Source: Isoetes taiwanensis (taxonomy: Eukaryota > Streptophyta > Lycopodiopsida > Isoetales > Isoetaceae). Taken from it: DNA of 64,000 nucleotides. Below, in pieces: positions 4,021 to 55,808 of the stretch (position 1 is the first letter of the stretch; every line of letters starts with the position of its first letter). The stretch lies in NCBI GenBank assembly GCA_021234155.1, contig JAJEKV010000035.1, forward strand, positions 10,788,407 to 10,852,406, given 5' to 3'. Position numbers and translations under genes: made by a program. The notes below the pieces were generated by a model. The model ran no database searches. It worked only from the letters and a program-made list of their open reading frames with translations, and was not told the DNA's origin.

Positions 4021-4094
4021 TATTTTGTGTTATCGTATCTTGCTGACCCGGATACATGTTTGATGTTTCAAACTTCCATTGCGTTTCTAAGAAG

Positions 4095-13450: not shown

Positions 13451-13754
13451 AGCAATAGCTAAGAGGATAGCATTTTCCAAGTGTAACACCCTATTGTCAT
13501 AAAGGAAAAGCTTGCTAAGACCGTAGATCCAAACGGAAAGAAGGGTACTTGCAATAGAGAGAAAAATCACATATGACGGCCCAGATTTCATGCGGAGCCT
13601 TTACCGGTCTGGAGAGCTTTGTCGCATAGATCTCCGAGCACGCTTTTAACCATTATACATGATAAGATGGATCAAATAAGACCATGGTCCCTCGTCTAGA
13701 GAAGCTAGCAAAGTCCAGTATGGAGGGGTGAACGACTGAAGGTCAGTGTTACAG

Positions 13755-15235
13755 GTGCTCTCATGCACGGCCATGGTATAGGTGCCTTGGGCCACTTCTC
13801 ACTGGACCTCTGGCCTGATGATTCTAATTTTCATGTGGGATCCTTGAATCATACCTTGAAGACACTGGAGAATAAATCTGAGGATAATTGGGGCCATTTG
13901 AGAGATACTGATCGTCCTGAAAGCAGCTGGGGTGCAGCAATTTTAAACACAGATAACCTTAGGACAAAAATGATGAATGGCAGTAGAAATGATTTTATGC
14001 CTCCTATCAAAGGCCCCATGGTAGCAAACAAGTTGCCTAGGAGGCTTTACTTGCAGCTAGATAATTGCTCAAGTCAGAATAAGAATAGATATCTTTTCTC
14101 TTACTTGTCATACTTGGTTTGGTTAGGTGTATTTGATCAAGTGCAGCTGGGATTCATGATGGTTGGACACACCCACGATGACATAGATGCCCTATTTGGA
14201 AACTACTCTACTCTAATGAGAAGATCAGATGCATTGACTATTCCGGAGCTTATGCAACTCTTCAGGCAGTGTAGTTCAAAGGCTCCTTCACCTTACCTTG
14301 TGACAGAGGTTCCTGATTGGAAGGAATTCGTGAAAGGATTTATCCCTGATAAGAAGGACCGTTTATGTGGTCACTTGGAACCTCTACTCTTCAAGTTTTG
14401 CATGAAGGATGGATGGCCACTAATGTTCTACAAGATGAGGCCAGGGCATAGGGAGTGGCTCCCTGAAAAGGGAATCAGAATGTGGAAGGAGGATGCCCAA
14501 GGTTTACCTATGATTCCGAGAGGGTCACCTAAGGTCCTCCAGCCATATGGGAGCTTGAAAGATATAGGTGCATTAAGAGCTTCTATTGCCAAGTACATGA
14601 TGCACTGGGCAGCTATTTCTAGAGCTGGCGATAAGTCATGGTCCAACACATATATGAATGAAGTTATTGACTACTGGTCCACCTTGCTGCGAGTGCTTGG
14701 TGACGTGCAGCCCGGTAGAGCTGTCATTCAGGATTTCTGGCCCAGCACCAGGCAAAGTGCATTGGAAGAACCCGAAAGAGTGTTTGTGGATGAGCACATT
14801 GAAGCATCTCATTACGTAGGGCCTTTCTCGGGTAGACCCAAGAACCCAGTTGAAATATTCGACCCCTACCAAGATGTCAAGAAGGGAATGCTCTTGCTAA
14901 TCAGACCACATGATAACTGCCCGACATGGATGGCTTTTGCCGAAGAGGACCCAGTAGAGGACCCTAATCTCCCACATTATGAAGAGGTGTTTGTCTCTTG
15001 GTTTGAACCTGTTGCCAGAAAGGGAACCTCATATGCAATGCAGTATAGGGATTGTTGGAGCAAGAATTGGAGACCCAATCCTAATGACCCGCCACGCTAC
15101 CAACCTTTGAAAACAATAGACTATGGTTGGGCCGTAGAGACCAGGCCATTGTCAGTGGTGATCCCCAGTAGTGTTCGGGCTCAGTTGCAAGAATTAGTGG
15201 CTAAAGAAGCTAAGGACGATGATGAGAACTCTTGA
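13755..15235 (+). CDS. DUF7869-type transposase-like protein, long C-terminal exon
   Basis: A 490-codon open exon. The first in-frame Met is at 13,763, but the exon probably starts at an acceptor (TTACAG) at 13,754, since homologous proteins read G-x-L-x-HG-x-G here. Seen: GHFSLDLWPDDSNFH, then LYLQLDNCSSQNKNRYLFSY, then GFMMVGHTHDDIDALFG. These spaced acidic residues (D..NC..QNKNR and GHTHxDID) mark the DUF7869 family, which I regard as an RNase-H-like transposase. The C-terminal half has an NWRP region and ends with a charged tail. The exon is uninterrupted while its N-terminal half is decayed, so this copy is probably inactive or recently dead. It is divergent from locus 3, the same arrangement as inside the 12.6-kb element. 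Confidence 0.7.
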
Positions 15236-15656: not shown

Positions 15657-15990
15657 TGAGGTAGAATTATTGAGGTGAATTATTGGGGTAGACTTCGGCG
15701 CCATTATTGCTCGTGTATAAGACCGTTGTATAAATACAAGTATAATACATCTTTCGTATGGATATATGTATGCGTACTAATATGCGTATGTTTCAAAACA
15801 TGTTTGCTTGACGAATTTAGCTATGATTGAATTCAATGACAGCTTGCAGAATAAGTGGAGGTGGGATAGCACATCGTTACAATATACTCAGTTAAGGTAC
15901 GTGATATTACATCCTTAATCAGAATGCTATTACATCCTTACTTAGTTATTAGGTACCCATGTCATTATTACATTATTAGCAGGTGCAGAT

Positions 15991-16233
15991 TCACTCGTCA
16001 TCAACATCAAAGCTCGTGATGCCATTCAGCTCATAGATCTCCTGATCAGGAAGCCAGTAAATATGGACTTTAACGCGAGTGAGCTTCCTGCAAGCACTAG
16101 CAGGTCCATCAGCTTTAGATAAGAGCCATGGATCAAGCTTAACGCTATTTCTAGCGCATTCGCCCAGATCGTTGTAGCTCAAGTAACACTTGAAAGAGCG
16201 GATGTGCTCTGGACGAGGCATCGAGGAAGCCAT
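15991..16233 (-). CDS. Small gene B of a tandem pair, unknown function
   Basis: An 80-residue protein starting MASSMPRPEHIRSFKCYLSY and ending with an acidic tail (SFDVDDE). It is the paralogue of gene A, 380 bp away and on the same strand. The pair differs at many residues but keeps length, the cysteine pattern, LDP and the E-L/I-x-GIT end, which is what purifying selection on a protein would give. Upstream sequences are also alike (TATA box, and a conserved block with CCATTATTG). Family not recognised. Possibilities are an element accessory protein or a small host gene. Confidence 0.6.
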   Translation of the reverse strand: MASSMPRPEHIRSFKCYLSYNDLGECARNSVKLDPWLLSKADGPASACRKLTRVKVHIYWLPDQEIYELNGITSFDVDDE

Positions 16234-16268
16234 GGAAGATGAATGGCCTCTACCCCCTCGTGAAGCCG

Positions 16269-16277
16269 TTTTTATAG
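16269..16277 (-). promoter_or_regulatory. TATA box of small gene B
   Basis: CTATAAAAA on the minus strand, about 36 bases before the ATG of small gene B, conserved with gene A. The implied leader is very short. Confidence 0.6.
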
Positions 16278-16499
16278 TGAAGTAAAATTATTGATGTGAA
16301 TGATTGGCGTACAATGTAGGGCCATTATTGAGCTTATACGAGTGTCATGTACACGTACAAGTATAACACAAAATTTGTATGTATATGTGTATGTTAATTA
16401 CCTCATGTTTGTTGGGGTCGAGTACTAGGTGAAAGTATTCGTGCTTGAGCAAATAAGGTGTGCTCAAAATTCTCAAAATTGCGTTATTTTATCCAATTA

Positions 16500-17998
16500 A
16501 TGAAATCATGCTTATTAGTTAAATATAATAGTTTCGTTTTGGGCTCCTTGTGAATGACATGGCAGCACCTGGCTCACAGCCAGCAAGTAGATCCCAATCC
16601 TTCATAGTTTTACCCTTAAAAACATAGACATAAGGTATCTTGCAACCAGAAGCATTTATGCACACTAGAACAGTGATCCATTGTCTATTTTTTGGGACAT
16701 TTTGAAATACTTCTTGCTGCCCTCTTCTAGCAAGAATTCTCACACCTTTTTTTTCTCTAGCCATGATGCCAGTTTCATCACAATTCCAGATTCTATCAGG
16801 GGTCAGTTGTAGCTCTTCAATAAGGTTCCTTAAGTTGGTATAGAAGGCAAGCAAGTTATCTGTATTCAATGTCTTTACTCTTTGGGTGTCAATAGTCTCA
16901 GGACTCCTCAAAGCTACACTAGGATGCCTCCTTTTGAAGCCCCTCCACCATGATCTTCCAGGTATACCATCCTTCCAAAGGGTAATCCTACCTGCAGCAA
17001 GTTCACTTGCCTTCTTGCAAAGGCCATCAATGGTTACTCCTCTTCCCTCATTTGCTCGGGAATGGATCCAAGCAACAAGCTCGTCCTCCTCTTCTAAATT
17101 AAGGCATTTAGGCCTAGGTCCAAGTTTATGTCTGCTTCTTCCATAAAGCCAGTTCCTCAAAGTCCTAGCAGAAATACCAAAGTGTCCAGCAGCACCTCTG
17201 ATGCTCATGCTTCCATCATCAAATGCATCTTGTGCATTCTCCATTTGTTGCATTGTCCACTGGCCCCTCTTTTGGCATCTTATTCTCTTATTGCCAACAA
17301 GATTGGGATTATGTGCACCATCCTCCTCAAGTTCCAGCAGCACAGGTTCATTGGTTGTCCTCTTCTTCTTAGTCTTTAGAGGAGGAGCAGGCTCCTCAAC
17401 CCTGCCTACAACTTGTCCTCTCCTTAATTCCATGAACTAGCAGACAATGCAATGCCTAGAATGCAATACAGACAAGAAAGAGCATGAACAGACAAGGAAG
17501 AGCAAGGACCAACCCTTCCAAAAATCAATTAAATAGATTAAGTGAGGAGGGAACGTATCTGGATCTTGGCTGAATAGGAGTTCAAATCTCCCTCTAAAAT
17601 CTGCATGCAAACTTGAAACACATATCTCACGGTGGGAGATGTGTCCAACTCAGTGATCTGGAGCATGTGAGGGCCAGATTGATTCTGAGCATGACCTGCA
17701 TGCAATATTTGAGGCGCCAAACTGTAGAAATAAGGCGCCAAAGGATTTCCTGGCTCAAAATCTCCAGCATGATGCAGGGAGCCATGAAGGAGCCGCATGC
17801 AATTAAGGAAGGGATTAGGGCGCGCCATCTTAAAGGTGTAGAAAAGCAAAGTACATACCTGCGCCTACAATCTCTTGTGGTGAACCATCGGCCAAAAATA
17901 GGGCTCCAACTCGAGTTCTGGTTGAACCCTAAAAGAGACCACACTGGTCCATAAAGGTGCGCCAAAACTGGCCCGTGCACCAATATTCGGCACCCCCC
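16500..17998 (-). mobile_element. pogo-like (Tc1/mariner) transposon, 3'-truncated
   Basis: It comprises the transposase gene at 16,519-17,433, an upstream leader and a terminal sequence at 17,979-17,998 (minus strand GGGGGGTGCCGAATATTGGT). The end abuts TTATATG, which matches the DXS intron at about 43,815-43,826, consistent with insertion at a TA. The other end of the transposon, with the second half of the transposase, is missing. The left boundary given is approximate. Confidence 0.6.
16519..17433 (-). pseudogene. pogo/Tigger-type transposase, truncated
   Basis: A 304-codon frame. Domains in order: a basic N-terminus; a helix-turn-helix (about residues 58-95, SIRGAAGHFGISARTLRNWL); a CENP-B-type DNA-binding domain (about 100-175, with LVAWIHSRANEGRG and WWRGFKRRHP); and the start of the DDE domain with its first catalytic Asp (RIWNCDETGI, about 225) and IPYVYVFKGK. 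The frame stops soon after, so the second and third catalytic acids are absent. Full-length relatives are usually 450-550 residues. This copy cannot be catalytically active but could still bind DNA. Family call is firm. Confidence 0.85.
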
Positions 17999-22579: not shown

Positions 22580-24507
22580 CCCTTCCGAATTCCGCGCCGC
22601 AATCTAATCATGCATTTACCTGCCACGTTTTCATTTCTCCTCGCAGAAGTTGACGCCTAGCTGTGGGCGATGGCAAGAACGATGGATAGAAGCCCTGCAC
22701 TTTGAAAGGGCTGAATGATTTGCTTACTTGCCCCTTTATCCCGCATTCTGCAACACAATCGGGTAGCCAGTCCCATTTTGAATGAGAAGCCGATCCGGTT
22801 GTGAAAACATGCCGATTCTCGCATGATCGTAAATAAGCAAGGCATGGGAATTTTTTGGTTGGGTGTCGGATTCTGAACTCGGATTAGTCTCAGAGGAGCT
22901 GCAAGAACCAGAGTTCTCAAAATCGGGTGTGAAAACGGGGGAAGTGGAATGAAATTTTGAGAAGAAGGGTTTTTATTTTGGGTCTGGAAATGCGAAACGG
23001 CTTAGAGTTTTGGATCTATGGGCTTTTTTGTACAAGTCAGGGGTAGAATTGGAGCTTTCGAAGAAGCAATCTAAGAAGGAGATACGGAGAAGGATTGGTA
23101 GCCTTTTTGGGAGCAAAAGCTTCGGGTTTGGGCTGCCCAGGAGCAAGGTCCCATTTGAATGGCACAGCGGCACAGGCCGGGAACGGAGATTCGACATCCT
23201 CTGCCGAGTTGATCTGCAGCAAAAATTTTGCCCCCTGTGAACCCATTAAATCGAAAGAAATTTCTGAAACCTGAGACACTTCTCTCGAATGCATCTGCCT
23301 GCTCAACCCGCAGTTGGCTATGGCAGAGTAGAGCAGTTGGTTATGGCGAAAGCGAGTTGGTGAGCGAGAGCGTAGCGCAGAAAGTAGCCGCTTAAAACCA
23401 TACTAGGCGATTTAGCTCAGGGAGATTATAAAACCCTTTTGTTTCTTTCTTTTGTTCTGCGAGTTGAGCCGAATGGGACCAGAAGACATAGCTTAGACTT
23501 GAATAGGTTTTCCTCTCTTAGTTTTTGGCACACGCAATCGGATCCAGCCAATAACTTAGCTCCACGCAAAGTATTCTTCAGGGCAGCGCCGGAATGGTCC
23601 ATAATGCGGATCAAGGAGATAGAAACATGGGATCTGCTTGCAACCGGTATATCCGCAGCAAAGGACCTCGAGATTTCTCCGCACACGACATTGTGGTGCA
23701 GGGGAAGGCTTGAATGAAGAAGTAAAGGCGGGTTAAAAGACAGGGAGTGTGCCGTTATCTTACCAGGCTCTGAATTTATTGGCATAGTGGGTGCGTGTTG
23801 GCCGAAAAAAAATATGCAAAGGTTATTGTTTGGGCAGTTGTTGGTTTCCTAGAAGTCTAGGGTTCTTAGCTTATTACACGGCTTTAGGACTCAACCCTAG
23901 CTGTCTCCTTGAAATCCCATTTTTTTTGTTTCCTTGGTCTTATTTTCATCCAACAAGTTCGACTATAAATCCCCCATCCGGAGATGTCTACCCAAAAACC
24001 AGGTACGTATGGTATTAGTGATGGGTAAGGTCCTGCCAGTTGATTTGTGGCCGATCTGAAGAAAAAAAGATGCGGTTTTGCTCTAAAATCCTCCCCCCAA
24101 ATGGGGAATCTTCTTCTTCTTCTCCAGAAGCCTTTGCCTGCTGCATCAACCCACCAACACCAATATGCCCCTGCCCCTCTGTTATTCCTCCGTTTTCCTT
24201 GCTGCCGGTACCCCAATTGGACTCCTCTCCTTCCCAATTGGACCGTATTTCAATTAAGTTAAATAGATTTCAATGTTGAGCCATGCGTTAAACATTGCCA
24301 TTTAAAGTTATTGGATGTGCCTAGAAAATAAAAAGTCAATTTGTTTTTCAACTCTGAATGCATTTATATTTTGCAAAGATACTAGGCTATAAGTTAATGT
24401 ATGGTTAGCATTACTAGGTCCAATCCTTTACTGTTAATCACAAAATTTGAACCTCATTTTGAGAGCCTTGAAATAACATTATTATCTTCAATAATTGTTT
24501 TTGTCCC
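22580..24507. repeat. Tandem unit 1 of 3 (DUF688-like unit)
   Basis: First of three direct units of about 1.9-2.0 kb, each starting near TACCTGCCACGTTTTC and ending with a common AT-rich spacer (GAGCCTTGAAATAACATTAT). Unit 2 is 24,508-25,944 plus 38,575-39,546, split by the 12.6-kb element. Unit 3 is 39,547-41,590. This unit gives the undisturbed target sequence at 23,526-23,545. Confidence 0.85.
22657..23306 (-). pseudogene. DUF688-like gene relic, unit 1
   Basis: Minus-strand coding with Met at 23,306 that reads through MSRQMHSREVSQVSEISFDL, then VPFKWDLAPGQPKPEAF, a basic leucine-rich stretch, a Ser-rich stretch (SCSSSETN) and a C-terminal part near FSPFKVQGFYPSFL-like sequence in unit 2. 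The VPF-W-x-x-x-P-G-x-P pattern is what I know from the plant DUF688 family, of unknown function. Frames change near 22,980 and 22,740, so it is broken. The three copies share most sequence but each has different lesions. Confidence 0.5.
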
Positions 24508-25765: not shown

Positions 25766-25944
25766 TAATGTGAGCAGAGCAGAGCAGAGCAGAGCTGTTT
25801 GAAAACCATACTAGGCGATTTATCTCAGGGAGATTATAAAACTTCTTTTTTTTGTTCTGCTTGTGGCGACAGAGTTGAGCCGAATGGGACCAGAAGATAT
25901 AGCTTAGACTTGGATAAGTTTTTCTCTCTTAGTTTTTGGCACAC

Positions 25945-25969
25945 AAGTCGTATTTAATTAAAGTGGGAC
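25945..25969 (+). repeat. Left terminal inverted repeat
   Basis: 25 bp, perfect inverted match to 38,550-38,574. GGGACT motifs repeat just inside (25,987 and 26,003). Confidence 0.95.
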
Positions 25970-26169
25970 AAATCTTGAATTTTGGGACTCGGACTGAAAA
26001 TGGGACTCACACACCATAAAAGAAATTTCTGAATTGATTGCTTGAATAGAATTACACATGACACACATAGAATTGGGTTACTTGTTTTCCTCATAAATTT
26101 TACAAACCACTAGTTGAGAAAGTTTTCAAACTTCTCAATATTATGTACCCTCATACAATAATATAGCAT

Positions 26170-28501
26170 GGAGGTTGCTCATGGCCTTGTCCATCTCCCT
26201 TCTTGGGATCTTGTGTGTGTTGTCTTTTGCAATGTGAGAACTTGGATATGACCATACCACACACTCCACCAATTCCCTCCTTTGAGGGTCAAGATAATTT
26301 GCCCTCCACTTCTTCTCCCAGCCAGCTGTATTGCTCCTTCAAGTTGCCCTTCTTGGTTCCCCAATGGGCTCCCAATATTGAATTTGAATCCAGACGCAAC
26401 TCCTCTCCATCGTGCATAGTGGTGGTTACATCAGAGAGTGCCACCCCTAACCATATTGGACAGTCCTTATCATCGCCCTTACTAGCACAAAGTATCCTTC
26501 CTTGATGTCCTCAAAGGGATCCCACTCGTGAAGATCAAACCACTTCGCTTTGAGGCCTTACTTTCCCACAAACCACTTGGAACCCTTTTGTTGGGACCCA
26601 AGTGAGCATTCTTAGACATGCTTGCACCTTGAGAACCCTCCCATCTTGACTCGGGTAAGAACCCGCCTCTTAGCTCCCCTCCCACATGGCCGCCTCAGTT
26701 TCTAAGCATGTCACAACTTTCTCCCCAAGATTTGATTAGGGAGTCCATTTGATTTTTCTTAAGAGTGGAGGTGTGCTTTCCATTTTAACATCATCCCAAA
26801 GCTATGTAATCCTTGATGCCCTTCACTAGTTGGCTAGAGTCTTTGACTGCCTTGAAGGGAGGTAGTGGTTTTGGGTGCCCTTTAGGAATGAGAACTTCAC
26901 CAGCCAGCACCCCCTTTGCCACAACTCGATACCTTGTACAGCATCCACAACTTGTCACCTGGTCTCCACTTATATTGCATGATTGGTATTCCATCCCTAA
27001 CCCAAAACTTGAACTGAAGTGGCTTTGTGTGTCCTCATCAACCGGTCCTTACCATCTAGCAAGTATCCTTCTACAAATGATTTCCAATCTGCAACCTCAT
27101 CCATCAAGAAAGCCATTGGGTTGGGGTCAATGCAGCTCTCAAACACATCCATTAGTTCAGTGGAGAGTGGTCACGCTTTCTCTTGAGCTTGGTGGAGAAA
27201 GTTCCAAAGAATCCATCTATATCATCATGCGATGCCCAACCATCATGAATCCCACTTTCACAACTTTGAATACTCCCACTGGCCGCCAAGTATGACATTG
27301 CCCCAAACATCCATCTATTCTTGTTTTTTTCCAACAGCTTGTCCAACTCAACACATAGCTCCTCGTGCAAGTGATTTCTCAAGTAAGGGGAAATCATCCC
27401 AAGTCCTCCTTGATTCACTAGACACCTTGATGTGAGCTTTTTATCCGCCTTTGGTAACAAAGCGGTTGATCATCCATCAAAGCCTCAAAATGGGTGCTTT
27501 GAAGGGAATACCTCCTCCCTTCTATCGATCCTTTCTCTAGTGTTCTCGTGCACTTGAAAATAGAGCTCACATTGGAAGTTTGGATCATCTCTCCATAGAT
27601 CAAGCACAAAATGACCATATGTTCCAGCCCATGACCATGTGTTAATACACCCGCTGCACTTACTTTCATCATCCGAAAAGCCGCTTTTGACAATGCTTGG
27701 GTAAAGGATCTAGCTTTGGCAAGAAAGTCTTGTGTTGGTCCATCTTATCATGAATTATACACAAAACTTTGTCCCACCAAAGATCTCGTAAAATGTTCTC
27801 CACCGCCAATACAACTATCTACATGATATTTGGTCCCTTTGGTGATCTCAAAAATTGTCTGAATTGCCATTCTTTCTTTCTATTGCAGTTGATGCAAGTG
27901 TATCCTTGAGTTGAATGCAAGTGTTGCACTTTGAGAATGGCATGTGTTGTAGGACACTCACGCCCGAGAAGTGAGTGCTCCATAACTTGCTGAAATGTGA
28001 TTGAGAAAGAGGCCTACCTCCAAAGAGGTTTCCAGGATGGAGTTGACCTCCTTAAGGCACTCCTTTTGGATATAGTGTTGTGGCAACACTTGCACCACTC
28101 GCACAATCGCTCGCTCACCTTCTCGACTTGTGGGGCATAGATTGAGACATGTATCTCACAAAGCTCTCAAGACCTGCAATGGCCTTGAGAGTATTTGCTC
28201 TAGGTTTCAAAGTGAGTGCATTACCATGTTGGAACAAACTGTGGCCTTTTCTAACCTCGCCCCCAAAGATCTGTAAAATGAAGACTTGCTCACCCCAAGA
28301 ATCCATCTCAATGCTCTCATACATACCTTCATGCCCCTCAATTGATATAGTAGCCGGCCCCGTTTTCATCATAGCCGAATTCCTACACAAGGAGTAAATG
28401 AAATTAATCCTATCTTTTTGAAGCTGTCCAATGTATTGGGACCTTATCCGCACGAGGTCATCCACATTGTAATCGCGACCAGGCAATCTAGGTTGCAACA
28501 C
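26170..28501 (-). pseudogene. DUF7869-type transposase relic inside the 12.6-kb element
   Basis: Minus-strand fragments in the order of the better preserved gene at 13,755-15,235. 28,115-28,501: N-terminal part with DYNVDDLVRIRSQYIGQLQK. About 27,650: AAGVLTHGHGLEH, matching GALMHGHG. About 27,190-27,235: SHDDIDGFFGTFSTKLKRKR, matching THDDIDALFG. About 26,870-26,930: VLIPKGHPKPLPPF, matching MIPRGSPKVLQPY. About 26,340: WEKKWRANYLDPQRRE, matching WSKNWRPNPNDPPR. Frames shift repeatedly, and the LDNC...QNKNR part is not readable. A dead transposase, presumably the source of mobility for this element or its relatives. Confidence 0.7.
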
Positions 28502-29087
28502 TCTTGTCCCCTAATTGCCTCCGTGTTTTCTCCGGTTGGTGCCATACTTTCCATCCTTTCTAAATATTTCACTTCTAGGCCTCTTGGGCACCCTTGGTGG
28601 TCACCTTTTATGAAAGACATAGCGCCTCTTCCTTGTGATCAAAGGATGCTCATCGACCACCAAATCTTCCACATGGCCTTGGGTGGGCCTTGGGGTGTGT
28701 AGTTCAAGAGGGCATTCTAGAGTATCACCATTCTTGTGTGTAATATATCTAATTGGCCATCTCAACCGAAAGCTTGGGACTCCAGCAGCCCCGAAAGCAC
28801 ACAATGCAATCACTAGAGCTTCCTTTGGGACATGATTGTATCAACTTCGATAAGAAGCTTCACAATGCCAACCCAAGATGTTCATCTCCCAAATTTCTCA
28901 TCATTCACACTATCAAATGGATCAACCGCAGCTATTATGCCCTCTCAAGAATACCGCCCTGCTGCAAGGGTGCAACAAAAGGCAACCCATCTTCCTCCAT
29001 TGGAGCCTAGGGCAATGGCCTCTGCTGGACTTCCTTGGCTCCATTTTACTCATCTCACATGCTCCCTGAATGAAAAAGCTCACATTA

Positions 29088-29300
29088 AAACCATATAGCC
29101 CCAAACACCACAAATATGACCATATGAACCATATAAAACCATACAAACATATTAAATATAACCATATTAAATCATACAACCATATTAACTAAAATCATAT
29201 AACCATATTAAACCATACTAAACCATATGTAAACATTGTAACCATATATAACCATTGAAACTATTCAACCATTGAAACCATATTAAATATATAAGATAAC
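29088..29300. repeat. AT-rich ACCATATTAAA minisatellite
   Basis: More than ten irregular repeats of (A)ACCATATTAAA/ACCATACAA with 10-20 bp spacing in the centre of the 12.6-kb element. Confidence 0.75.
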
Positions 29301-29340
29301 ATATATAAACATATAACCCAACCTTTCATATCTTGTCATG

Positions 29341-29426
29341 GCCACGTGGCGCCTCCTCAGAGGCTGAAAGCGTGGCCATGTCAGCAATCCGCACTGCCAC
29401 ATCATGGAGGGCATGGCCCACACGTG
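29341..29426. promoter_or_regulatory. Two G-boxes in a probable divergent promoter
   Basis: GCCACGTGGC at 29,341-29,350 (perfect palindrome) and CACGTG at 29,421-29,426, between the divergent transposase relic and the candidate first exon at 29,868. G-boxes bind bZIP and bHLH factors in plants. Use here is inferred. Confidence 0.4.
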
Positions 29427-29867
29427 ACAGAAGGGCATTATTGCACTTTTACGAGGTTCGGGAGGGTGCGCCTTAATTAATCGCACCCTCTTCCTCTCCC
29501 CCACCATTCTTCCTCCCCTCGCTTTCTCCTCGATCACTCTTCGAGCTCTGTATTTTCCTTAAGCGCCCGCTTTTCCGATCAGGCGATCGATCGAACCGAG
29601 CCATTCCAAGGCCATCTTATGACAGCAGCTTGGTCGACGGATCAGACGCCTTCCACCGGGTTCTCGCCAAGCAGATTGAGTGTTCGAGCCAAGCATCGCC
29701 TCGAGAAGAAAGTGAGGCCCTTTTTTAGTGTCGCTTAGTTTTCTCAGAAGTCCTCAGACTGCATTTTTACTTATGTTCTCATTGTTAGAGGCTCTTATTA
29801 ATCCCTCGATACAATTTATACAAAATTCGACAAATCCTTATTCAAGGCTTTAACGAATTATACCCAC

Positions 29868-29914
29868 ATGGAATCGAACACGGAAGCCTCCTCCTCAACC
29901 AACAAATCTTCCAG
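29868..29914 (+). CDS. Candidate first exon of the locus-2 gene
   Basis: ATG at 29,868 opens MESNTEASSSTNKSS and ends at a consensus donor AG/GTATGT (29,914/29,915), followed by a pyrimidine-rich intron-like stretch. It lies between the G-box region and the rest of the plus-strand cargo gene. Short, so only a candidate. Confidence 0.4.
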
Positions 29915-30639
29915 GTATGTTTTTGTAATATCATACCCTTTTTTAATCTCATTTCTCTGTACTGTTCTCTGTTTTCTCATTAATCTCATTTGTCTCCAGT
30001 GTTCTCTGTTTTCTCATTAATCTCACTAATCTCTCTGTTATCTGTTTTCCTTTTGTATTGTTTTCTGTTTTTGTTATCTTTTTCTTGCTTGTGGTTGAAT
30101 TGAATACATTGTACGTGCACAAGTAGAATAGTGGTTATAGTAGTAGCAAGCAACCGAGATGTCACTCATCGAGAGAGACAGGTGTTAGAAGTAAGATATT
30201 GCGAGCATTAACGTAAGAGATTCACAAAAGATATAGCTAAACTGCCTAAGAATGTTTCATATAAGAACATAACTAGGAATGTTTTTTCCCCAAGAATAAC
30301 TAAGAATAGGAATTGCTTCACGGACCGTGATTTCTAACTCACAAAGATATCCTCCACTCGCAGAGACATGCAGGAGTGGCGAAGAAGAATATTTGCTTGC
30401 AACAAATCCAGAAAGTTTCTTCTTCGAATCAAGCGAAGTCGAGAACTTCTCGACTGGGCAGGCGGCGAAGAGGGAGTGTACACTCGGACTGCTGGCCCGG
30501 TGAGGGATTCTCGACTCGCGATCCGATTGCACACGCCTACCCAATGTCTTCACATTCTTTTTAAGCTCTTTGCTGACCTTCTCTCACCGTAAGTCGAGAA
30601 TGTCATACCCATCAATGGCCCTTTTGTGTAAGAAGTGCC

Positions 30640-32100
30640 TCCACCCACCCCGAGTCACTCTCCTTCAACCATGCTCATGAATATTGCGGCGAGGACCGGC
30701 TCCTCGACCGGGTGGGAGGCCTCCCGCGACTAACCACGAGGTGTTTCACGCCGACTGCGTGGAGTCGAAAAAACGCAGGCTCTAGTGCACTTGTAGCGCT
30801 GGCCCGTGACAGCCTAACCACTCTCCTTCTATCTTCCCTGGACATTATGAAGGAAGTGGTTTTGACTGCCTCAAGCAGGCCAACCTTAGCAACCCAATTC
30901 TCCCCGTGTGTGGTCGCAAAGTGGCCTCTACCCAATCAAAGACCGCCTCCTTCAACCATCTTCGCCTAATATTGCGGGGATGGGCTCGACAGGGAGGAAG
31001 GCGACTAACCACGAGGTGCCAGCCGCCGACTAGTCGAAAAACGGTGCACTCTAGTGCACTCTAGAGTCGGGCTCAGCAGACAGCCTTTTAACAACTCTCC
31101 TTCTATCTTCCCTGACATGCGCGGGAAGTTGTTTTGACTTGTCCCGCAGGCCAACTCCCAGCAACCCAATTCTCCTATTTGTGGTCGCAGCGGGCCTCTA
31201 CCCAATCAAAGACCGCCTCCTTCGAACCATCTTCATCGAATATTGCAGAAGGGATGGGCTCTGATTGGGTGGAAGCCTTTACAACTAACCACGGGAAACC
31301 ACAGCTTCTTTCAGATGCATTCTCGGCCAAGGAGTGGGGAATGCCTTACCCAACCGCACTCCATGTGTACCATCCGAAGTTCTCGATGGCATAAGGCATT
31401 CTCGACTTTGCGAGTCGAGAATGTAGAGAGGAAGCCAACGATGATTCTCACTTCGCTAGTCGAGAATCCTCTAGCCACCAATTCTCCCGTAGGTTGTCGC
31501 AAATTTCTCTACCCGCCGAGCCACTCTCCTTCAACCATCTTCGACGAATATCGCTAAGGGAGGGGCTCTCCGACCGGATGGAGGCCTCTACACCAACCAC
31601 GAAAACCACAGAGCTTCGTCCCCGCATTCTCGCCATGAGTCGGGAATGCTCTTAACCAACCGCACACCATGTGTACTAACCGGTTCTCGATGGTTAAGGC
31701 ATTCTCGACTTGCGAAGTCGAGAATGTAGACAGAAGCCAAGCATTCTCGACTGCAAGTCGAGAATCCTTTAGCCAGCCCAATTCTCCCAGAACGGTAGCA
31801 AGGGCCTCGACCCAGCCGAGTCACTCTCCTTCAACCATCTTCGCCGAATATTGCGAAGGGAGGGGCTCTGACCGGGTGGAGGCCTCTACAACTAACCACA
31901 GGGGAAACCACAAAGAGGAAGCCAAGGCTTGCATTCTCTACAACTATCGTGACTTTCTATTCTCCCTGCTTTTAGTCCCAAGTGCCTCTAGCCTGCTCCT
32001 CGAGCCACTCTCCTTCAACCATCTTCCCTCGAATATTGCGAAGAGGAGTGGTTCCGACCGGGTGGAGGTCCCTCCGACTAACTACAAGAGGATGCATTTG
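30640..32100. repeat. Six-unit degenerate tandem array
   Basis: Units of about 190-310 bp, each with a core reading CTCTCCTTCAACCATCTTCG, then GAATATTGCG, GGGTGGAGGCCTCT and ACTAACCACG. Cores start near 30,655, 30,948, 31,215, 31,522, 31,822 and 32,008. The third to fifth units also carry palindrome family 2. No convincing coding. Confidence 0.8.
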
Positions 32101-33071
32101 AAACGATCTCATGGGCCTTAGACCTAGCCTCGATCTATGTACAACATTCCAAGAAAATACCCATGAAAAAAATACACCTAAAACGAATCGTTTTTACCCC
32201 CATCCATTGTTTCCTTGCCGAGCATCTCTCAACCCGTAGAGTAAATCATCTCTAAGCTGAAAAATGCCGGATAAGGAAATGATGAACTGGCCGAGCTTAT
32301 CGCCAGCTCTATTATTTAAACACGTACCGCATGTTCTACAAGCTTAAATAACATAGGCATCTCTCAAACTCACCTCTTCACGCAAGCAATTCCTTGGGCC
32401 ATCAGATCACGGATCCCGCAGGAGTCTTTGCTTTTCCTCGCGGTCTCTTCAAGAGTGTATTCGATCTAATACTTGTATCATCGCGATTCTCGCTGGGCAG
32501 ATCCCCGCTCCATGGCGCAAAGAATGTAGAGTTCCCGTTCCGCAGCTCCTCTCCGCTTCCTACCTTAGCTCTCGCGGCTCATCGATCAAATCAACTGCTT
32601 GCAATAGGACGCTACGGTCGAAAAAACACACATATGCAAGGCGCCAGTAGCTTATCACACAAGGGCGCCATTCCGGCAAGCATACGATGTCACGCCCAAC
32701 TCAAGGTCACCAATGCCGCAGTTGAAGATAAACACGCCCGCCACTTAGTCCCTTTGATGTGATTAAATTTCGAAATAGTGTTTGGGCGGGCTAAAGGCGA
32801 CCGTGGCTGCACTTTTAGCCCGCTTTTTTCATAAATGATTGCATGTCCTTAAATTCAAACTAAAGAACACGCCCGATCTTTTTTACATGCAGTCCTAAAA
32901 CTCACAACGCCCGGAGGAAACTTAATTTACAGAGGGGTCCGATCAGGAAGAAGATGAGGGGGCATACAGACATGGCGACTCCGGCCCAAGAAGCTTAGGC
33001 GCGGAGGGGATGCTTCTTCCAAGCAAGAAGAAGAAGAAGACAAACACCCCGTGTGAGCTCGAGGTTTTTCT

Positions 33072-34230
33072 TTGTCGGAATACCTTAACCGATCCATCCT
33101 TTCTTCTTGCAAAGATTCACCTCCTGACTCACCGGTGATCACCGGGTCAACTCCATTCTTCGCCATCGAGGGATCGGAGATAGAGCTTCTTGACACAAAG
33201 AAGCAGATTCTTGGTGGTATGTCGAGGTATCAACAAGTGGGAAGGAGAAAGATCTGCTTCTCCACCAAAGGGACAAGAAGAGCTCCTGAGACAAGTACAA
33301 GAAAATCGGTGTTGCGCCTCCGCCTCTCGCTGATTCAAGCATTTAACACTACATGTCGAGGACCCCGTAAGAGTAAGTTCTATCACACCAAAAAATTAGC
33401 AGCTTCAAATTATTCTCACTCTTCCATGAGCAAGGCGAAGGGCACCAAAAAAAGGCGGCGCTTTTAAATTGTCGAACCTTGGGTGGAAGGATCTGGAAGG
33501 GATGAAGGAGGCCGAAACCCTAACATCCAGGGAGCTTGGTATGGAGATTTCCAGAGTCAGGGAAAACCTGTTCAATACGGGGAGCTTCACTTCTACTGTG
33601 CTGAAGACTCTACAACACTCTGCAGTGGGGAGTGAAGTTGTGGTTCATACGAAAAAGTCCGCCAAAGACCAAAGATGGAGAAGATGGCACCACACCGAGG
33701 AATCGATGATGACGAAGGAGACGAAGATATGGTCGACTCCCCAATAATGGATCCGCATGATCGTGATCAGATTTGACAGAGAGGGGCACGTAAAATGGAG
33801 CTGGCCGGCTCAAGATATCCGCTGGGGAATATCACACAAGCCGCCGCTGACATTAGACGGTGAAGGTTTGCACGGAAATGCCGCCTTGTTCAACCATTGA
33901 ATTTAATCCAAAGACACATGCCGGAGATTCTCAACCCCGATGGTGTGACATCATGTTGCGCATCCAATGCCCGCGGATGTCATACCTTTTAGCGATCGAC
34001 CGGTGAGTTGTTCACCGGAAGTCCGAGGAAGCGTCCGGTTCGGGTTGTAGACGGCCAAGATTCGAGGGCTGGCGCTAAGTATCCAAAGTGAGGGCGGCGA
34101 GAAGGAGGTGCCGCAGCGATCAAGGATAGATATGCTGCGAGAGTGCAGAAGTTCTTCAAATGAGACGCCAAAGAACCTAACCAGCCGATTAGCCAACGCC
34201 GTAATACAATAGCAACGAAAGTGCCGCCAC
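33072..34230 (+). pseudogene. Locus 2, N-terminal coding remnants
   Basis: Open segment 33,072-33,467 (EYLNRSILSSCKDSPPDSPV and a basic Lys/Arg-rich end) is followed by pieces similar to locus 1: RYPLG at about 33,812, LIQRHMPEILNPDGV at about 33,903, and RVVDGQDSRAGAKYP at about 34,038. Stops and frame changes interrupt the reading. The function of this region is unknown. Its conservation in loci 1 and 2 shows both derive from one gene type. Confidence 0.45.
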
Positions 34231-34847
34231 GTAAGGTAAATAACTCTCTGATTCTTTCCATTCGCTGAAGTCGAGAAAGCCCTACCATCCTAACATTTCC
34301 CGATATCACCGGGTTTCTCGACCGCCGCCGTCGGTGCCGGGTAAATACGTAAAAATCAAAGGATGCGAGCTTTCGACTTTCGAGTCGAAAAACCCGAGAA
34401 GTAAAAGAAAATTCGACATTCAGGGATTTCGGGGCGAAGTCGAAAGCCCTACCATCCTAACATTTTCCGATTATCATCGGGGTTTCACTCGTGAGTCGAG
34501 AAAGCCGTGTATACGTAAAATCAAAGGATGTAGGGGCTTTCTCGACTCGAAGTCGAGAAAACCCGAGAAGTAAAAGAAAAATAGACATTCAAGGGACTTT
34601 CTCGACTCATGAAGTCGAAAACCCGGGCTACTATTTATCGCTTATTCCGCGGTGTTTGTAGATACTTTCATGCTCGACATTGGTACATTGACCAATGCAG
34701 CCTTTATCCCGACCTCGTGATCATACACGCCAGGGCAACAAAGGGAAAGCATTGGGTTGTCCTCGGCCCTAAAGGAAACAGGGCTCCCTGGATAAGTGGA
34801 AGACCTTTGAGAAACTATGCATATATGTTCTCACCGAGGGCCGGAAG

Positions 34848-36294
34848 ATGATGAGGGAGAGGAAGAAGAGGAGAAGAAGAAGAGAACACCAAGGAAAGGC
34901 AGGGAGTCTCTCTCGCACCAATATGACCTCATTCTTAGCACCGAGGCGGTCCGGGGAGAAATGGACCGAGATATGGGCTCAATGGACACGAGGCAAGCCG
35001 GGGACAAAGAATGGAGAATTTCCATCCGTGCCGGACCCCAAGTTGTTTGACAAGCAGTTCATGAAGAGGATACAGGGCCTCACGGACAAAGAAACGCTTT
35101 GACCTACAAGGCGTAATCTTGGATGGAACAATTCTCGCTAAGGAAGATGAGGAGTTCTAAAATGCAGACGCAAAAAGGATTATGCCACGTCCCGGCTTAC
35201 GGCAAGCGTTAGAAGAAGGCATCACGCGAAGTTCTCGCAACGCTGCATCTAATGAATATCATGATTTTGATTATTACAAGGAAAAGGCTGCCCTTGATGA
35301 GGAAGACATGAAGGAATTGAACCGCCTATGTCAACCCTACATCAACACCAAGCTGAAGCGCAACGCCAAAACCCTTCCTTTCCCCTCGAACGTGCTATGG
35401 CAATTCTCAAGAGGAAGCTTGGATTCGGGGTGGTCCCATTTAAGGCAGACGATAGCTCCCCCCCATTTCTGGTAACTTTGGGACACAAGGGATTTGGTGG
35501 TCTGGAACTGGCACCTGGACCCGTGGCACTATTTGCCATCAATATGATCGAAGACCCCACCCTTTTTTATGACAAAGCTGACATAGAGCAGTGGTACAAG
35601 ACGGTTCCGACATGACCGACTGGATACTTTCGCCTTGTCTTTTGCATGCCGGGCAATCGACAACCGCTGTCTCCCAATGGGCAGCTGATATTAACTTCAC
35701 CAACAAGATCGTGCACTCCATATACGAACTTGATCATGAGTGCAGACTTGGCTTGCCGAAGGCACCAAGCTTTGCCAACATAGTTTTGGTTTTGATTTCA
35801 AGATCGGCGGTAGACCTGGATAAGTGGTGGTCTAGCGAACATCATTATCTCGACAAGTTCATGATCTCTCAAGAGCAGATGGAACCCTGGAAGGGGGGCA
35901 GATTTATGGAGGATGTTCCATCGATGGACAAGGTCAGCAAAGATGGTGCGACAGGTCCTATACATAGAATTCCTATCCGGCCAAGAGTTATCAAGTACTT
36001 CATAACCAGCTTGGTCGAGGAAGATCAAATTGTATGCGAGTGGTACATGAATGGCCTGTTCTCTCAGGGGGCTATGCTGTATGGCATGAAACCTATATCC
36101 GTGGTTGGAAATAAGGACATGGTTGAAACCATTCGGTCATACCTGGATCTGCTTCATGAGCATTTCAAGGGGAGGAAGACAAATGGAAGCAGTAAAGACG
36201 ACGAGGACGAGGGAGACAAAGCTGACGGAGATGAGAATGTCGAAGGTTTAGACCAGAATGTTGCCGAACACATTCTTGAAAACCTGAGATTGAG
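34848..36294 (+). pseudogene. Locus 2, methyltransferase-like region
   Basis: Plus-strand segments 34,848-35,102, 35,182-35,475, 35,328-35,615 and 35,591-36,294 overlap in different frames and look like one coding sequence with indels. Seen: EDMKELNRLCQPYINTKLKR, KLGFGVVPFKADDSSPPFL, VALFAINMIEDP...W (position of motif IV), and near the end RVIKYFITSLVEEDQ then CEWYMNGLFSQGAMLYGM (position of SAM motif I, strongly diverged). An acidic Asp/Glu/Lys linker leads to a donor AG/GTGAGT at 36,294/36,295. The assignment as MTase-like depends on alignment with locus 3. On its own this copy would not be recognised. Catalytic residues are not conserved. Confidence 0.4.
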
Positions 36295-36432
36295 GTGAGT
36301 TTACTTTGCTCTATCGGTGTTTCTCGACTCGCGAGTCGAGAAAACTCGTTTCCTTTCAATACCTTTTCTTTTCATTCTCGACTCGCGAGTCGAGAAAACT
36401 CGTTTCCTTTCTGACAGATGTCATCATTTCAG

Positions 36433-37285
36433 GGACTTCCATGTCAACGACTCCGGATCATTGTCATTGGATAGCAGCGGTTCACGTCGCGAGGAGGAGA
36501 ATGCACTCCACAAAGACAATCCAGAGCAAGACACTGCTCACAGCCAGAAAGGACTTGAGAAGATAATGATCCCACATTTGGATCCCGATGAACCGGAAAT
36601 ATGGTCAGAGCCAAACTCCAACTGGGATCCAGCTGGTCCCACCAAGCTTGTAATATTTGACGTCAATGGAGTATTAGCTGCAGTATACCACGATAAAGAC
36701 GTCCCCGAGATTAACACCTCGCAGATCCCAACCAAAACAGAGCATAAAATAGTGTATCCGAGGCCTAGAGCTAAGGAAATTGTTGAATGGTGCCTGGAAC
36801 GGGGATTCGAAGTGGGCATATGGTCTTGTATGGCAAAGAAAAATATTGTCAATGTTCTTGGTGTTCTCGGCATTTCGGTTTTGAAGTTCAAGTTCGTTTG
36901 GGGAAGCAAAAGGGTCGAGCATGTGTCGGACCTCGATCCAGCCATCACAAAGGGGAAGCCTATAATGGTGAAAAGGTCGGACAGGGTTTATGAGCAATTC
37001 CGTGGACTATGGCAAACACAACACGCCATCATAGATGACTCCGCCCACGAAGTGCTATCATAACGCCAAGAAAAATACAATCATTGCTAAGCCATATCGA
37101 CCAAGAATATGAGACGGATAGGTGGTTGTCCTTCTGACCGTGTCCTTGCCTTGGCGGAATCCCTCTTTGCCATTCTTGTCGCCGATGTGATTAGTAACTA
37201 TCCGAGCCTCACGGAACCCGATCCAGAGAGCAAGGCAATCATGAAAGCTATGGACGACAAATATTTTGGTGAACAAGAAGAGTGA
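36433..37285 (+). pseudogene. Locus 2, FCP1-like HAD phosphatase domain
   Basis: The exon begins at an acceptor (ATTTCAG, 36,432). After an acidic, Ser-rich linker it reads LVIFDVNGVL (motif I, about 36,647-36,676), YPRPRAKEIVEWCLERGFEV, VGIWSC, KFVWGSKR, a lysine in GKPIMVKR and HAIIDDSAH (about 37,024). A frame change near 37,060 gives a stop, but coding continues as YHNAKKNTII and then, after another shift, ILVADVISNYPSLTEPD, ending at 37,285. This is the FCP1/SCP (NIF) family of Asp-based protein phosphatases. Motif I is D-x-N as in locus 1. Joined to the MTase-like exon by a 138-bp intron with two palindromes. Probably a recently decayed gene. Confidence 0.75.
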
Positions 37286-37786
37286 CCTCTTTTTGATAGT
37301 CAAATTGTGTGAATATTGTAAACAAACGTGAACACATGTATTGAACATTTTGTAATGAATATACTTGTATATTGAGTTTTCGATGCCTTTCTCGACTCAC
37401 GAGTCGAGAAAGGCATGCTTGTCCTGTTGATGAGACAATTTGTATGTTTGATTGTGTGACTGGATGCAGCCACAATCTATTATGATAATGCTTCTACGCT
37501 ATTTTGGGCCTTTCTCGACTCGCGAGTCGAAAGGCATGCCGGTTGTCTCGCTGACGAAAAGCATTTGTATGCTTCCGTGTGATTGGATGCAACCATATTC
37601 TAATGAGAATGGTTGTACTTTGATTTTATGGGCCTTTCTCTCTTCAAGAAGTCGAAAGACACTACTTCCCACGCCATTGATGCGGTTGTATGGAATGAAT
37701 GTTCTCCATTGTAATTTGATTTCAACATTCTTTTCTTCGCTTTGACTAATGGCACCGTGAATTGTTAATCATACTCTCCTTGCTCC

Positions 37787-38282
37787 GTGGTTCAGGCACA
37801 CCGATCCGACACCAAGACAGCATCCCGGCCAGGCATCACACGTAGACCGCCCCAGCGGCACGGATCCCGCCAAGGCGGAGGAAATACCGCTCGCACGCGC
37901 ATCCCCGGTCACGCCACACTCTTGCCCGCCTTTGGGATAAGGTTGCTCGCGCGAATTCGAGGTTGCTCTACACCCCGGGATAAAGAACAAAAGGAAGAAC
38001 AAAGAGAAAGTCCAGGAAGCTCAAAGCATCTTGCAAGCATTGCATAACATCCACGGAGGTTGGGGAAGGAGCATATTCGATGAAAGGCTGCGGGAGGCGA
38101 GTGGAGAAGTCGGGTGGACAGGTCGGCTGGTAGCTCCAGAGGCACCTCCACGTGAGGCATTCCACACTCTTCAGGTTGCCCCCAAGGCTTACAGTCGGCG
38201 TGAAGAAGCGCCGCTAGTTAATCCCCTAAGGTGGACCACCTACCAAGATGATGTAACTGTAGTGACAGCAAGACCACCATAA
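37787..38282 (+). pseudogene. Locus 2, possible terminal exon with poly(A) signal
   Basis: Open segment whose last part reads LHNIHGGWGRSIFDERLREA and ends with WTTYQDDVTVVTARPP. A consensus AATAAA follows at 38,327-38,332, 45 bp after the stop. No domain recognised. The position suggests the 3' end of the cargo gene, about 300 bp before the right terminal repeat. Confidence 0.4.
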
Positions 38283-38549
38283 TCTCTGCGTCCGATGTAA
38301 AATACATTGTATCTGTTCAATTTATTAATAAAAATTCTTTTTCAACTAGATCTTTAGTTTCAAACTTTAATGAATTTCCTTTGTTTCAGTTGCATTGTTC
38401 TTGTTCTCGACTCGCGAACCAGGAAAAACTGCAGCAAAGCTTGGATTCAGAGTTTTATTCAAAAATTCGAATTAAGGATAGTTTTCGGGTCGGGGTGCTA
38501 CTTTTTATGTAAATTAACCGGGTTCCGAAAAAAAATGGGAATGGAATGA

Positions 38550-38574
38550 GTCCCACTTTAATTAAATACGACTT
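38550..38574 (-). repeat. Right terminal inverted repeat
   Basis: 25 bp, inverted match of the left end. GGGACTC just inside recalls the GGGACTC near the left end. Confidence 0.95.
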
Positions 38575-39546
38575 ACACGCAACCGGATCCAGCCAATAAC
38601 TTAGCTCCACGCAGTATTCTTCAGTGCAGCGCCGGAATGGTCCATAATGCGGATCAAGGAGGCAGAAACAGGGGATTTGTTTGCAACCGAAGTATATCTG
38701 CAGAGCAAAGGACCTGAGACGCCTCTCTGCACACGATTGTGGTGCAGGGGAAGGCTTGAATGAAGAAGTAAAGGCGGCTTAAAAGATAGGGAGTGTGCCG
38801 TTATCTTACCAGGCTCTGAATTTATTGGCATAGTGGGTGCGTGTTGGCCGAAAAAAAAATGCAAAGGTTATTGTTTGGGCGGTTGTTGGTTTCCTAGAAG
38901 TCTAGGGTGCTTAGCTTATTACACGACTTTGGGACTCAACCCTAGCTGTCTCCTTGAAATCCCATTTTTTTTGTTTCCTTGGTCTTATTTTCATCCAACA
39001 AGTCCGACTATAAATCCCCCATCTGGAGATTTCTATCCAAAAACCAGGTACGTATGGTATTAGTGATGGGTAAGGGCCTGCCAGGTGATCTGTGGCCGAT
39101 CTGAAGAAAAAAAGAGCGGTTTTGCTCTAAAATCCTCCCCCCAAACGGGGAATCTTCTTCTTCTTCTCCAGAAGCCTTTGCCTGCTGCATCAACCCACCA
39201 ACACTAATATGCCACTGCCCCTCTGTTATTCCTCTGTTTTCCTTGCTGCCTGGTACCCCAATTGGACTAGAACAACTAAGTTAAATAGATTTCAATTAAG
39301 TTAAATAGATTTCAATGTTGAGCCATGCATTAAGCATTGCCATTTAAAGTTATTGGATGTGCCTAGAAAATAAAAAGTCAATTTGTTTTTCAACTCTGAA
39401 TGCATTTATATTTTGCGAAGATACTAGGCTATAAGTTAATGTATGGTTAGCATTACTAGGTCCAATCCTTAACTGTTAATCACAAAATTTGAACCTCATT
39501 TTGAGAGCCTTGAAATAACATTATTATCTTCAATAATTGTTTTTTG
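38575..39546. repeat. Tandem unit 2, right part
   Basis: Continues the unit interrupted at 25,944, starting with the second ACAC. It matches unit 1 from 23,533 and unit 3 from 40,498. Open frames seen here are parts of the non-coding upstream region of the DUF688-like relic. Confidence 0.9.
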
Positions 39547-41590
39547 TCCCCTTCCGAATTTTTTCGCGCCGTAATCTAATCGTGCATTTACCTGCCACGT
39601 TTTCATTTCTCCTCGCAGAAGTCGATGCCTGGCTGTGGGCGATGGCAAGAACGACGGATAGAAGCCCTGCACTTTGAAAGGGCTGAATGATTTGCTTACG
39701 GCATCATTTATCCCGGATTCTTGCACAATCGGCGTAGTCAGGCCCGATTTTGAATGAGAAGCCGATCTGGATGGTGAAAAACATGCCGATTCTGCATCAG
39801 AAATAATGGGAATTTTTTGGTTGGGTGTCAGATTCTAAACTCGGATTAGTCTCAGAGGAGCTGCAAGAACCAGAGTTCTCAAAATCGGGTGTGAAAACGG
39901 GGGAAGTGGAATGAAATTTTGAGAAGAAGGGTTTTTATTTTGGGTCTGGAAGTGCGAAACGGCTTAGAGTTTTGGATCTGCGGGCTTTTTTGTGCAAATC
40001 AGGGATAGAATTGGAGCTTTCGAAGAAGCAATCTAAGAAGGAGCTGCAGAGAAGGATTGATGGCCTTTTTGGGAGCAAAAGCTTCGGGTTTGGGCTACCC
40101 GGGAGCAAGTTCCCATTTGAATGGCACAGCGGCACACGCCCGGAACAGAGCGGAATCCTTTGCCGAGTTGATCTGCAGCAAAAATTTTGCCCCCTGTGAA
40201 CCCATTAAATCGAAAGAAATTTCTGAAACCTGAGACACTTCTCTCGAATGCATCTGCCTGCTCAACCCGCAGTGGGCTATGGCAGAGCAGAGCAGTTGGC
40301 TATGGCGAGCAGAGTTGATGAGCAGAGCAGAGCAGAGCAGAGCTGTTTGAAAACCATACTAGGTGATTTAGCTCAGGGAGATTATAAAACCCTTTTGTTT
40401 CTTTTTTTTTGTTCTGCTTGTGGCGACAGAGTTGAGCTGAATGGGACCAGAAGACATAGCTTAGACTTGGATAAATTTTCCTCTCTTAGTTTTTGGCACA
40501 CGCAATTGGATCCAGCCAATAACTTAGCTCCGCGCAGCCGGAATGGTCCATAATGCGGATCAAGGAGGCAGAAACAGGGGATTTGTTTGCAACCGAAGTA
40601 TATCTGCAGAGCAAAGGACCTGAGACGCCTCTCTGCACACGATTGTGGTGCAGGGGAAGGCTTGAATGAAGAAGTAAAGGCGGCTTAAAAGATAGGGAGT
40701 GTGCCGTTATCTTACCAGGCTCTGAATTTATTGGCATAGTGGGTGCGTGTTGGCCGAAAAAAAAATGCAAAAGGTATTGTTTGGGCGGTTGTTGGTTTCC
40801 TAGAAGTCTAGGGTTCTTAGCTTATTACACGGCTTTGGGACTCAACCCTAGCTGTCTCCTTGAAATCCCATTTTTTTTGTTTCCTTGGTCTTATTTTCAT
40901 CCAACAAGTTCGACTATAAATCCCCCATCCGGAGATGTCTACCCAAAAACCAGGTACGTATGGTATTAGTGATGGGTAAGGGCCTGCCAGTTGATTTGTG
41001 GCCGATCTGAAGAAAAAAAGATGTGGTTTTGCTCTAAAATCCTCCCCCCAAATGGGGAATCTTCTTCTTCTTCTCCAGAAGCCTTTGCCTGCTGCATCAA
41101 CCCACCAACACCAATATGCCCCTGCCCCTCTGTTATTCCTCTGTTTTCCTTGCTGCCGGTACCCCAATTGGACTCCTCTCCTTCCCAATTGGACCTGAGT
41201 TGAGTCATGTATAAAAGTTGTCTGAAGTGGCCCACTTAAAATAATATTCCAAGTGGCCTTTAGACATAGAACAACTAAGTTAAATAGATTTCAATTAAGT
41301 TAAATAGATTTCAATGTTGAGTCATGCGTTAAGTTGAATAGAACAACTAAGTTAAATAGATTTCAATTAAGTTAAATAGATTTCAATGTTGCCATTTGAA
41401 GTTATTGGATGTGCCTAGAAAATAAAAAGTCAATTTGTTTTTCAACTCTGAATGCATTTATATTTTGCGAAGATACTAGGCTATAAGTTAATGTATGGTT
41501 AGCATTACTAGGTCCAATACTTAACTGTTAATCACAAAATTTGAACCTCATTTTGAGAGCCTTGAAATAACATTATTATCTTCAATATGA
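39547..41590. repeat. Tandem unit 3
   Basis: Third DUF688-like unit. It holds a GAGCA microsatellite (40,320-40,344) and the intact empty site near 40,496-40,515. Its 3' spacer contains extra short duplications of AACTAAGTTAAATAGATTTC (41,270-41,390). Confidence 0.85.
39600..40240 (-). pseudogene. DUF688-like gene relic, unit 3
   Basis: Minus-strand copy. 39,935-40,135 reads NLLPGSPNPKLLLPKRPSIL in a shifted frame, and 39,496-39,726 keeps the C-terminal FSPFKVQGFYPSFLPSPTAR stretch. The PFKW part is in another frame. Not functional. Confidence 0.45.
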
Positions 41591-55740: not shown

Positions 55741-55808
55741 ACACCACACAACACAAGGTAGTCTCTACACACCACCACATACCACACACACACAACATAT
55801 ACCAAGAC

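Follow-up and report, generated by a model that had tools for sequence, protein, structure and literature searches.

Among the terminal inverted repeat (TIR) transposons of plants, CACTA and PIF/Harbinger elements duplicate 3 bp of their target and hAT elements duplicate 8 bp. Duplications of 7-12 bp are given for Mutator, and of the dinucleotide TA for Tc1-mariner, in the portion of the source drawn on here (PMC10741241). A DDD transposase and 4-bp duplications are described for the Sola superfamily, reported from moss and pepper, whose members are mostly 2-9 kb long with some exceeding 15 kb and carry TIRs of 11-1124 bp, according to the relevant sections of two papers (PMC10741241, PMC9033089). 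Large plant TIR transposons with two genes, a transposase and a further coding sequence, appear in the same sections of one of these papers (PMC9033089), and Pack-TYPE elements are known in MULE, CACTA, hAT, PIF and Mariner, as stated in the part of a third source used here (PMC8903248). Here we report on a TIR-bounded element of 12,630 bp that lies in a 64-kb window (the whole stretch of DNA analysed) of the Isoetes taiwanensis genome. We consider it highly likely that we are dealing with a cut-and-paste transposon, about 12 kb long and now decayed, that belongs to a family with a DUF7869 transposase that would make a 4-base stagger, a NIF/FCP1-like accessory gene and small relatives of the Pack type.

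The two ends of the element, located by end comparison and genome-wide matches, are a left TIR at 25945-25969 (+) and a right TIR at 38550-38574 (-), which match perfectly in inverted orientation over 25 bp and continue inwards with two mismatches and two matches. They do not start with CACTA, and nothing else in the window comes closer to the 25-mer than eight mismatches. Comparison of the flanks and of empty sites places copies of the tetranucleotide ACAC at 25941-25944 and 38575-38578. The uninterrupted target, with a single ACAC, is found by alignment in two sister tandem units, at 40498-40501 in the unit 40319-40684 and at 23530-23533 in the unit 23360-23731, and when the flanks of the element are rejoined the resulting sequence aligns without a gap across the junction to both of them. 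The perfect ends, the ACAC on both sides and the two empty sites had all been noted in a preliminary description of the window, and all of them stand. Next to ACAC the element has A at its left end and T at its right end, where the empty site has G following and C preceding the tetranucleotide, so the duplication is exactly 4 bp long.

The same end is abundant in the genome. In 1,658,258,908 bases distributed over 1,110 sequences, the exact 25-mer occurs 1102 times in forward and 1115 times in reverse orientation (2,217 in total), while the reversed pattern used as a control occurs in neither. Pairs were drawn from the first 100 of these 2,217 end places by joining facing plus and minus neighbours no more than 27 kb apart, which left out farther neighbours and orphan ends; 30 pairs were kept, or 31 with the window element, with TIRs of 25 bp and spans of 3.5-14.8 kb and, for some, of 23-27 kb. 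A genome-wide tabulation of this kind had been proposed as a check in the preliminary description, with duplications of other lengths as the outcome that would speak against it. A target duplication of at least 4 bp flanks 29 of the 31 pairs, and no other length dominates: 27 duplications are exactly 4 bp, one is 5 bp and one, in a run of A, is 6 bp. One of the two pairs without a duplication is that of L010 (elements and loci are given by our own labels), whose flanks TTAA and GTAA agree in three of four bases. The C10 pair is probably mispaired, since its two ends are identical over the 60 bp compared. As the flanks of C128a and C128b are identical, the pairs represent 30 independent sites, 28 of them with a duplication; the two intervals concerned, 91575-106371 and 130592-141805, lie on one contig, C128, and point to a segmental or assembly duplication there. 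When flanks of different elements were cross-paired as a control, only 5 of 930 combinations matched over 4 bp. This abundant family thus duplicates four bases at its landing site.

Two genes had been expected inside the element, a relic of a DUF7869 gene and a second gene unrelated to transposases, and both were located. The DUF7869 relic, interrupted by stops and frameshifts, spans 26182-28360 (-) and was recognized by a match of one open piece to PF25273 (E 2.9e-7) and by tblastn with the L011 and L062 proteins; the second gene, at 36614-37282 (+), is a NIF/FCP1-like phosphatase homologue, broken by stops and a shifted part, with 77% identity to the open copy in L011. Five elements of about 12 kb (the window element, C16, C22, C60 and C118) are colinear, and in the other four the blocks of at least 3 kb share 76-92% identity with the window element, a central 2.1-kb block of C22 reaching only 69%. 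The elements of 3.5-6 kb form a different class: except for L011, which is a shortened 12-kb element, their blastn matches to the window element (at least 150 bp) cover only 169-239 bp at one end, and with L001 and L010 as queries the matches to the other small elements fall chiefly within about 1 kb of sequence at this same end. For gene counts, 17 of the 19 pairs above 10 kb (window element included) were used, C10 being dropped for its identical ends and C128a for sharing the flanks of C128b. By tblastn (E <=1e-3), DUF7869 was detected in every whole element of the 12-kb class (5/5) and in 11/12 further pairs, always at the same end, so that 16/17 large elements carry it as against 1/12 under 6 kb (L011 alone). 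The NIF/FCP1-like gene, detected by tblastn at the end opposite DUF7869, is present in 5/5 and 10/12 of the same groups, or 15/17 elements above 10 kb, compared with 1/12 of the small ones. The suggestion that paired ends would co-occur with DUF7869 genes is therefore borne out by 16 of the 17 large elements.

Such an association could arise if DUF7869 were a passenger or a frequent neighbour and the true transposase were encoded elsewhere and had gone unrecognized, an explanation that we regard as quite improbable. It draws on the extreme abundance of DUF7869 genes in I. taiwanensis, where PF25273 gave 9,907 first-look candidates and all 150 that were scored lay above the cut-off; sheer number weakens plain co-occurrence as an argument. 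This objection is answered in part by the fixed end at which DUF7869 sits and by the contrast with the small elements. A different transposase type within these ends would also have told against DUF7869, and a Pfam scan of nine frames (seven of the window element, two of L011), by which the long central parts are only partly covered, returned none. Further evidence comes from the protein itself. In an alignment of nine DUF7869 proteins, a first motif, IDGMDxKK, is present in the eight rows that extend that far (all but L011), a second, LDN..RENKN, in eight of nine and a third, GHTHDxID, in all nine. By analogy with DDE/D transposases these three motifs may correspond to a D-D-D triad. The second motif reads QLDK in another frame of L011, ELDK in the window relic and RLDN in the copy L083.

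An independent line of evidence is a second DUF7869 family. Long open DUF7869 frames were examined at eight loci, with upstream DNA added for five, and none of the eight had a DNA match (at least 60 bp, E <=1e-5) to a set of 17 elements of the first family, small ones included. The borders of the second-family elements appear as sharp breaks in the alignment, with ends of the form AACARGRTTGC..ATTAAACG.GAG, the end being set at AACA. Wherever both ends were found (4/4), the duplication, read from the printed flanks, is again 4 bp: AATG, TTAT, TTAA and AATT. The far end of L055 was not found, and no borders could be assigned in L049, L053 and L054. A further gene, in the opposite direction, is also carried by the loci that share these ends; in three frames of this kind no Pfam family scored above the cut-off. 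A relationship between the ends of the two families was considered and rejected, as their likeness falls short of significance (1556 and 739 of 20000 shuffles).

Besides that missing relationship, several observations weigh against a DUF7869 transposase or against the two-gene transposon as a whole. In the L011 row the second aspartate is replaced by T, so it is not invariant in the alignment, although the frame of L011 is shifted at this very place and this accounts for the T; the first motif falls outside the coverage of L011. AlphaFold predictions were unusable both for a part of L062 alone (mean predicted local distance difference test score, pLDDT, 32.4) and for L062 together with the second DUF7869 frame of the window described below (mean pLDDT 33.1), and in a codon-position test on broken copies the third-position excess of DUF7869 was weak. 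With its DUF7869 gene broken, the window copy would be unable to move by its own means. C128b possesses ends and a duplication and carries neither DUF7869 nor the NIF/FCP1-like gene, and C22a has no NIF/FCP1-like gene in the stretch checked. The broken window copy and the low-confidence folds, like the abundance of DUF7869, would suit a passenger; against it stand the constant position in the large elements, the 4-bp duplications of a second family with ends of its own, the D-D-D-like motifs and the Pfam scan within its coverage. On the strength of the same-end presence in large elements, the duplications of the second family and the D-D-D-like pattern, DUF7869 is very probably the transposase of the family.

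If so, the DUF7869 protein would catalyse transposition through its D-D-D pattern and would cut the target with a 4-base stagger, the repair of which would leave the 4-bp duplications. Full-size members are organized as two genes transcribed outward, towards opposite ends, with DUF7869 near one end and the NIF/FCP1-like homologue of HAD phosphatases about 1.3 kb from the other. The small elements of 3.5-6 kb, 11/12 of which have no transposase, would be mobilized in trans.

Relatives of DUF7869 were also sought outside the plant: there were none in viral contigs, and prokaryote genome contigs gave a single locus, L062 (CADCWO010000071.1), with an open protein of 947 aa. Its contig of 4.3 kb is binned as an uncultured cyanobacterium, and we suspect that it is a eukaryotic contaminant of that bin. 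A sequence search of the PDB with L062 produced no match up to E 1, and DUF7869 is named in no paper of the literature collection searched. The window itself contains a second and better preserved DUF7869 gene at 13565-15235 (+), with an open frame of 508 aa at 13709-15235 (PF25273 E 2.1e-44). Positions 4022 and 16374 were considered as the ends of the element to which it would belong and were rejected, since all 40 scored matches to the interval 15800-16500 continue past that point; no ends of this second element were found.

From the 4-bp duplication, the preliminary description had concluded that the element fits none of the common plant TIR superfamilies and may define a little-described one. 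Duplications of 4 bp and ends without CACTA do separate the family from CACTA, PIF/Harbinger, hAT, Mutator and Tc1-mariner, and although it resembles CACTA, PIF/Harbinger and MuDR elements (as these are described in the sections drawn on) in being large and in combining a transposase with additional coding sequence, it differs from them in its duplication length, its DUF7869 candidate and its NIF/FCP1-like second gene. Sola, however, had been overlooked, and the claim to novelty is weakened because Sola, in the parts of its descriptions used here (PMC10741241, PMC9033089), fits the structural features that were tested: exact 4-bp duplications (27/31 in the first family and 4/4 in the second), a putative DDD-like transposase pattern (three aspartate motifs in the alignment), element size and TIR length inside the reported ranges, and presence in seed-free plants, moss among them. 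The family might accordingly be an ordinary member of Sola, DUF7869 being simply the Pfam name for a transposase of Sola; novelty would then be confined to the accessory gene and the capture of host genes. We find the case for this evenly balanced. The comparison was made with described features of Sola only, and neither duplication length nor a D-D-D-like pattern proves membership; a NIF/FCP1-like accessory gene and Pack-type relatives, as found here, are not mentioned for Sola in those parts. The word "Sola" does not occur in the main text of PMC8903248 or in PMC13317346, and a search for literature on Isoetes, Sola and transposons found none.

The second gene is better documented in other copies than in the window. 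The L011 copy matches PF03031 with E 1.2e-10 and 41.8 bits, above the gathering score of 21.8, while the window frame (E 0.0042, 17.2 bits) falls below the cut-off. A genome-wide search gave 6,862 first-look candidates; among 150 scored copies many are stop-free, with open frames reaching some 330 aa or beyond and with identities of stop-free copies extending down to 74%. When eight stop-free copies were sampled, six were followed at a distance of 1.0-1.3 kb by a family end, matching at 21-25 of 25 bases, and two were not. Pairwise ratios of non-synonymous to synonymous substitution rates (dN/dS) among 17 stop-free copies and L011 have a median of 0.366 (quartiles 0.295-0.46, 153 pairs, median dS 0.21); the copies were picked for open frames, which is a bias against stops and not directly against amino-acid changes. 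This median suggests that the NIF/FCP1-like gene is under purifying selection, and the protein, apparently kept by selection, could serve the transposon as an accessory factor. It might instead be a host gene captured by chance that hitchhikes neutrally and does no work for the transposon, which seems to us rather unlikely given the many open copies, their divergence and their dN/dS, even allowing for the way they were chosen. Neutral capture would agree with the membership of the gene in a host-type protein family (PF03031), with the clear pieces of captured host genes in two small relatives, with its absence from the checked stretch in 2/12 further elements and the lack of a family end near two of the eight open copies, and with the broken copies, which show no third-position excess in the codon-position test; this last result also counts against an accessory gene maintained by the transposon. 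Enzymes of the NIF/FCP1-like group usually bear the catalytic motif DxDx(T/V). All 18 copies have an invariant FD.NGVL in its place, that is D-x-N-G, and phosphatase activity may therefore be altered or lost. Literature linking NIF with a transposase was sought and no related paper was found. Upstream of the gene, the window element has open frames at 35161-36298 (+) with no Pfam family above cut-off. Outside the element, the window holds another NIF/FCP1-like open frame at 4091-4708 (+) (PF03031 E 5.1e-10), whose identity with the transposon copy is about 28%.

Pieces of host genes were recognized in the small relatives by a Pfam scan of 29 frames from 11 elements, in which three frames, belonging to the two elements L010 and L005, had matches above cut-off. 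In L010, two exostosin GT47 pieces (E 1.2e-15 and 1.1e-10) follow each other in order and on the same strand. They share 96% (375 bp) and 98% (105 bp) identity with an open frame of 473 aa at L063 that is GT47 across nearly the whole profile (E 3e-75); within the 6 kb of L063, the best match to a family end is only 15/25. A second copy of the L010 element, L064, retains both ends (25/25 and 24/25). L010 thus carries pieces of a host gene between family ends, with the imperfect duplication noted above. L005 contains an aspartyl-protease piece (TAXi_N E 3.4e-17, with a second piece below cut-off) that shares 98% identity over 298 bp with a protease frame of 244 aa at L114 (E 3.1e-27), which is probably incomplete; no family end lies in the 3.4 kb of L114 (best 15/25). 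With TIRs, no transposase, a TTAT duplication and a piece of a host gene, L005 has every feature of a Pack-TYPE element. Host-gene capture of the Pack type thus holds for two of the 11 small elements scanned. Like Pack-TYPE elements as covered by the source used here, these are non-autonomous TIR elements with target duplications and host-gene pieces, and unlike them they have ends that belong to a 4-bp, DUF7869-associated family. In L010, a repeat of about 385 bp (about 1313-1697) interrupts the GT47 piece; it is missing at that point in L064 and in the host frame L063, is 96-100% identical at 10 other genomic places among the matches listed, and has the look of a short mobile element of recent origin.

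What is newest in this picture is the accessory gene together with the Pack-type relatives. A bolder version of it would make DUF7869 a superfamily of its own, apart from Sola, in which one abundant family of this plant has lastingly recruited a host protein of the FCP1/NIF HAD type, with D-x-N-G replacing the usual catalytic motif, that would benefit the element by acting on the machinery of transcription or silencing in the host, while the same ends would run a Pack-type shuffling of genes; we put this forward as a conjecture more doubtful than not by a good measure. For the decayed DUF7869 transposon that we favour, the consequences are a functional assignment, very probably as a transposase, for a Pfam domain of unknown function, and a large transposon component of the I. 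taiwanensis genome, of which the portion of the Isoetes genome paper drawn on (PMC8566536) yielded no description. It also adds a family with 4-bp duplications to the TIR transposons whose relatives bear pieces of host genes, and a phosphatase-like gene retained in a transposon constitutes an unusual accessory function that can be tested.

Two other features of the window concern repeats. At 16519-17436 (-) lies a transposase frame whose DNA-binding domain is of the Tc5 type (HTH_Tnp_Tc5 E 1.9e-6), adjoined by the repeat 15800-16500, for which there are 1,436 first-look genomic candidates with 96-100% identity in the 40 that were scored; frame and repeat together are a recently amplified element. 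Long low-complexity tandem tracts with open frames rich in His, Thr and Pro occupy 50580-51323 and 55646-56507.

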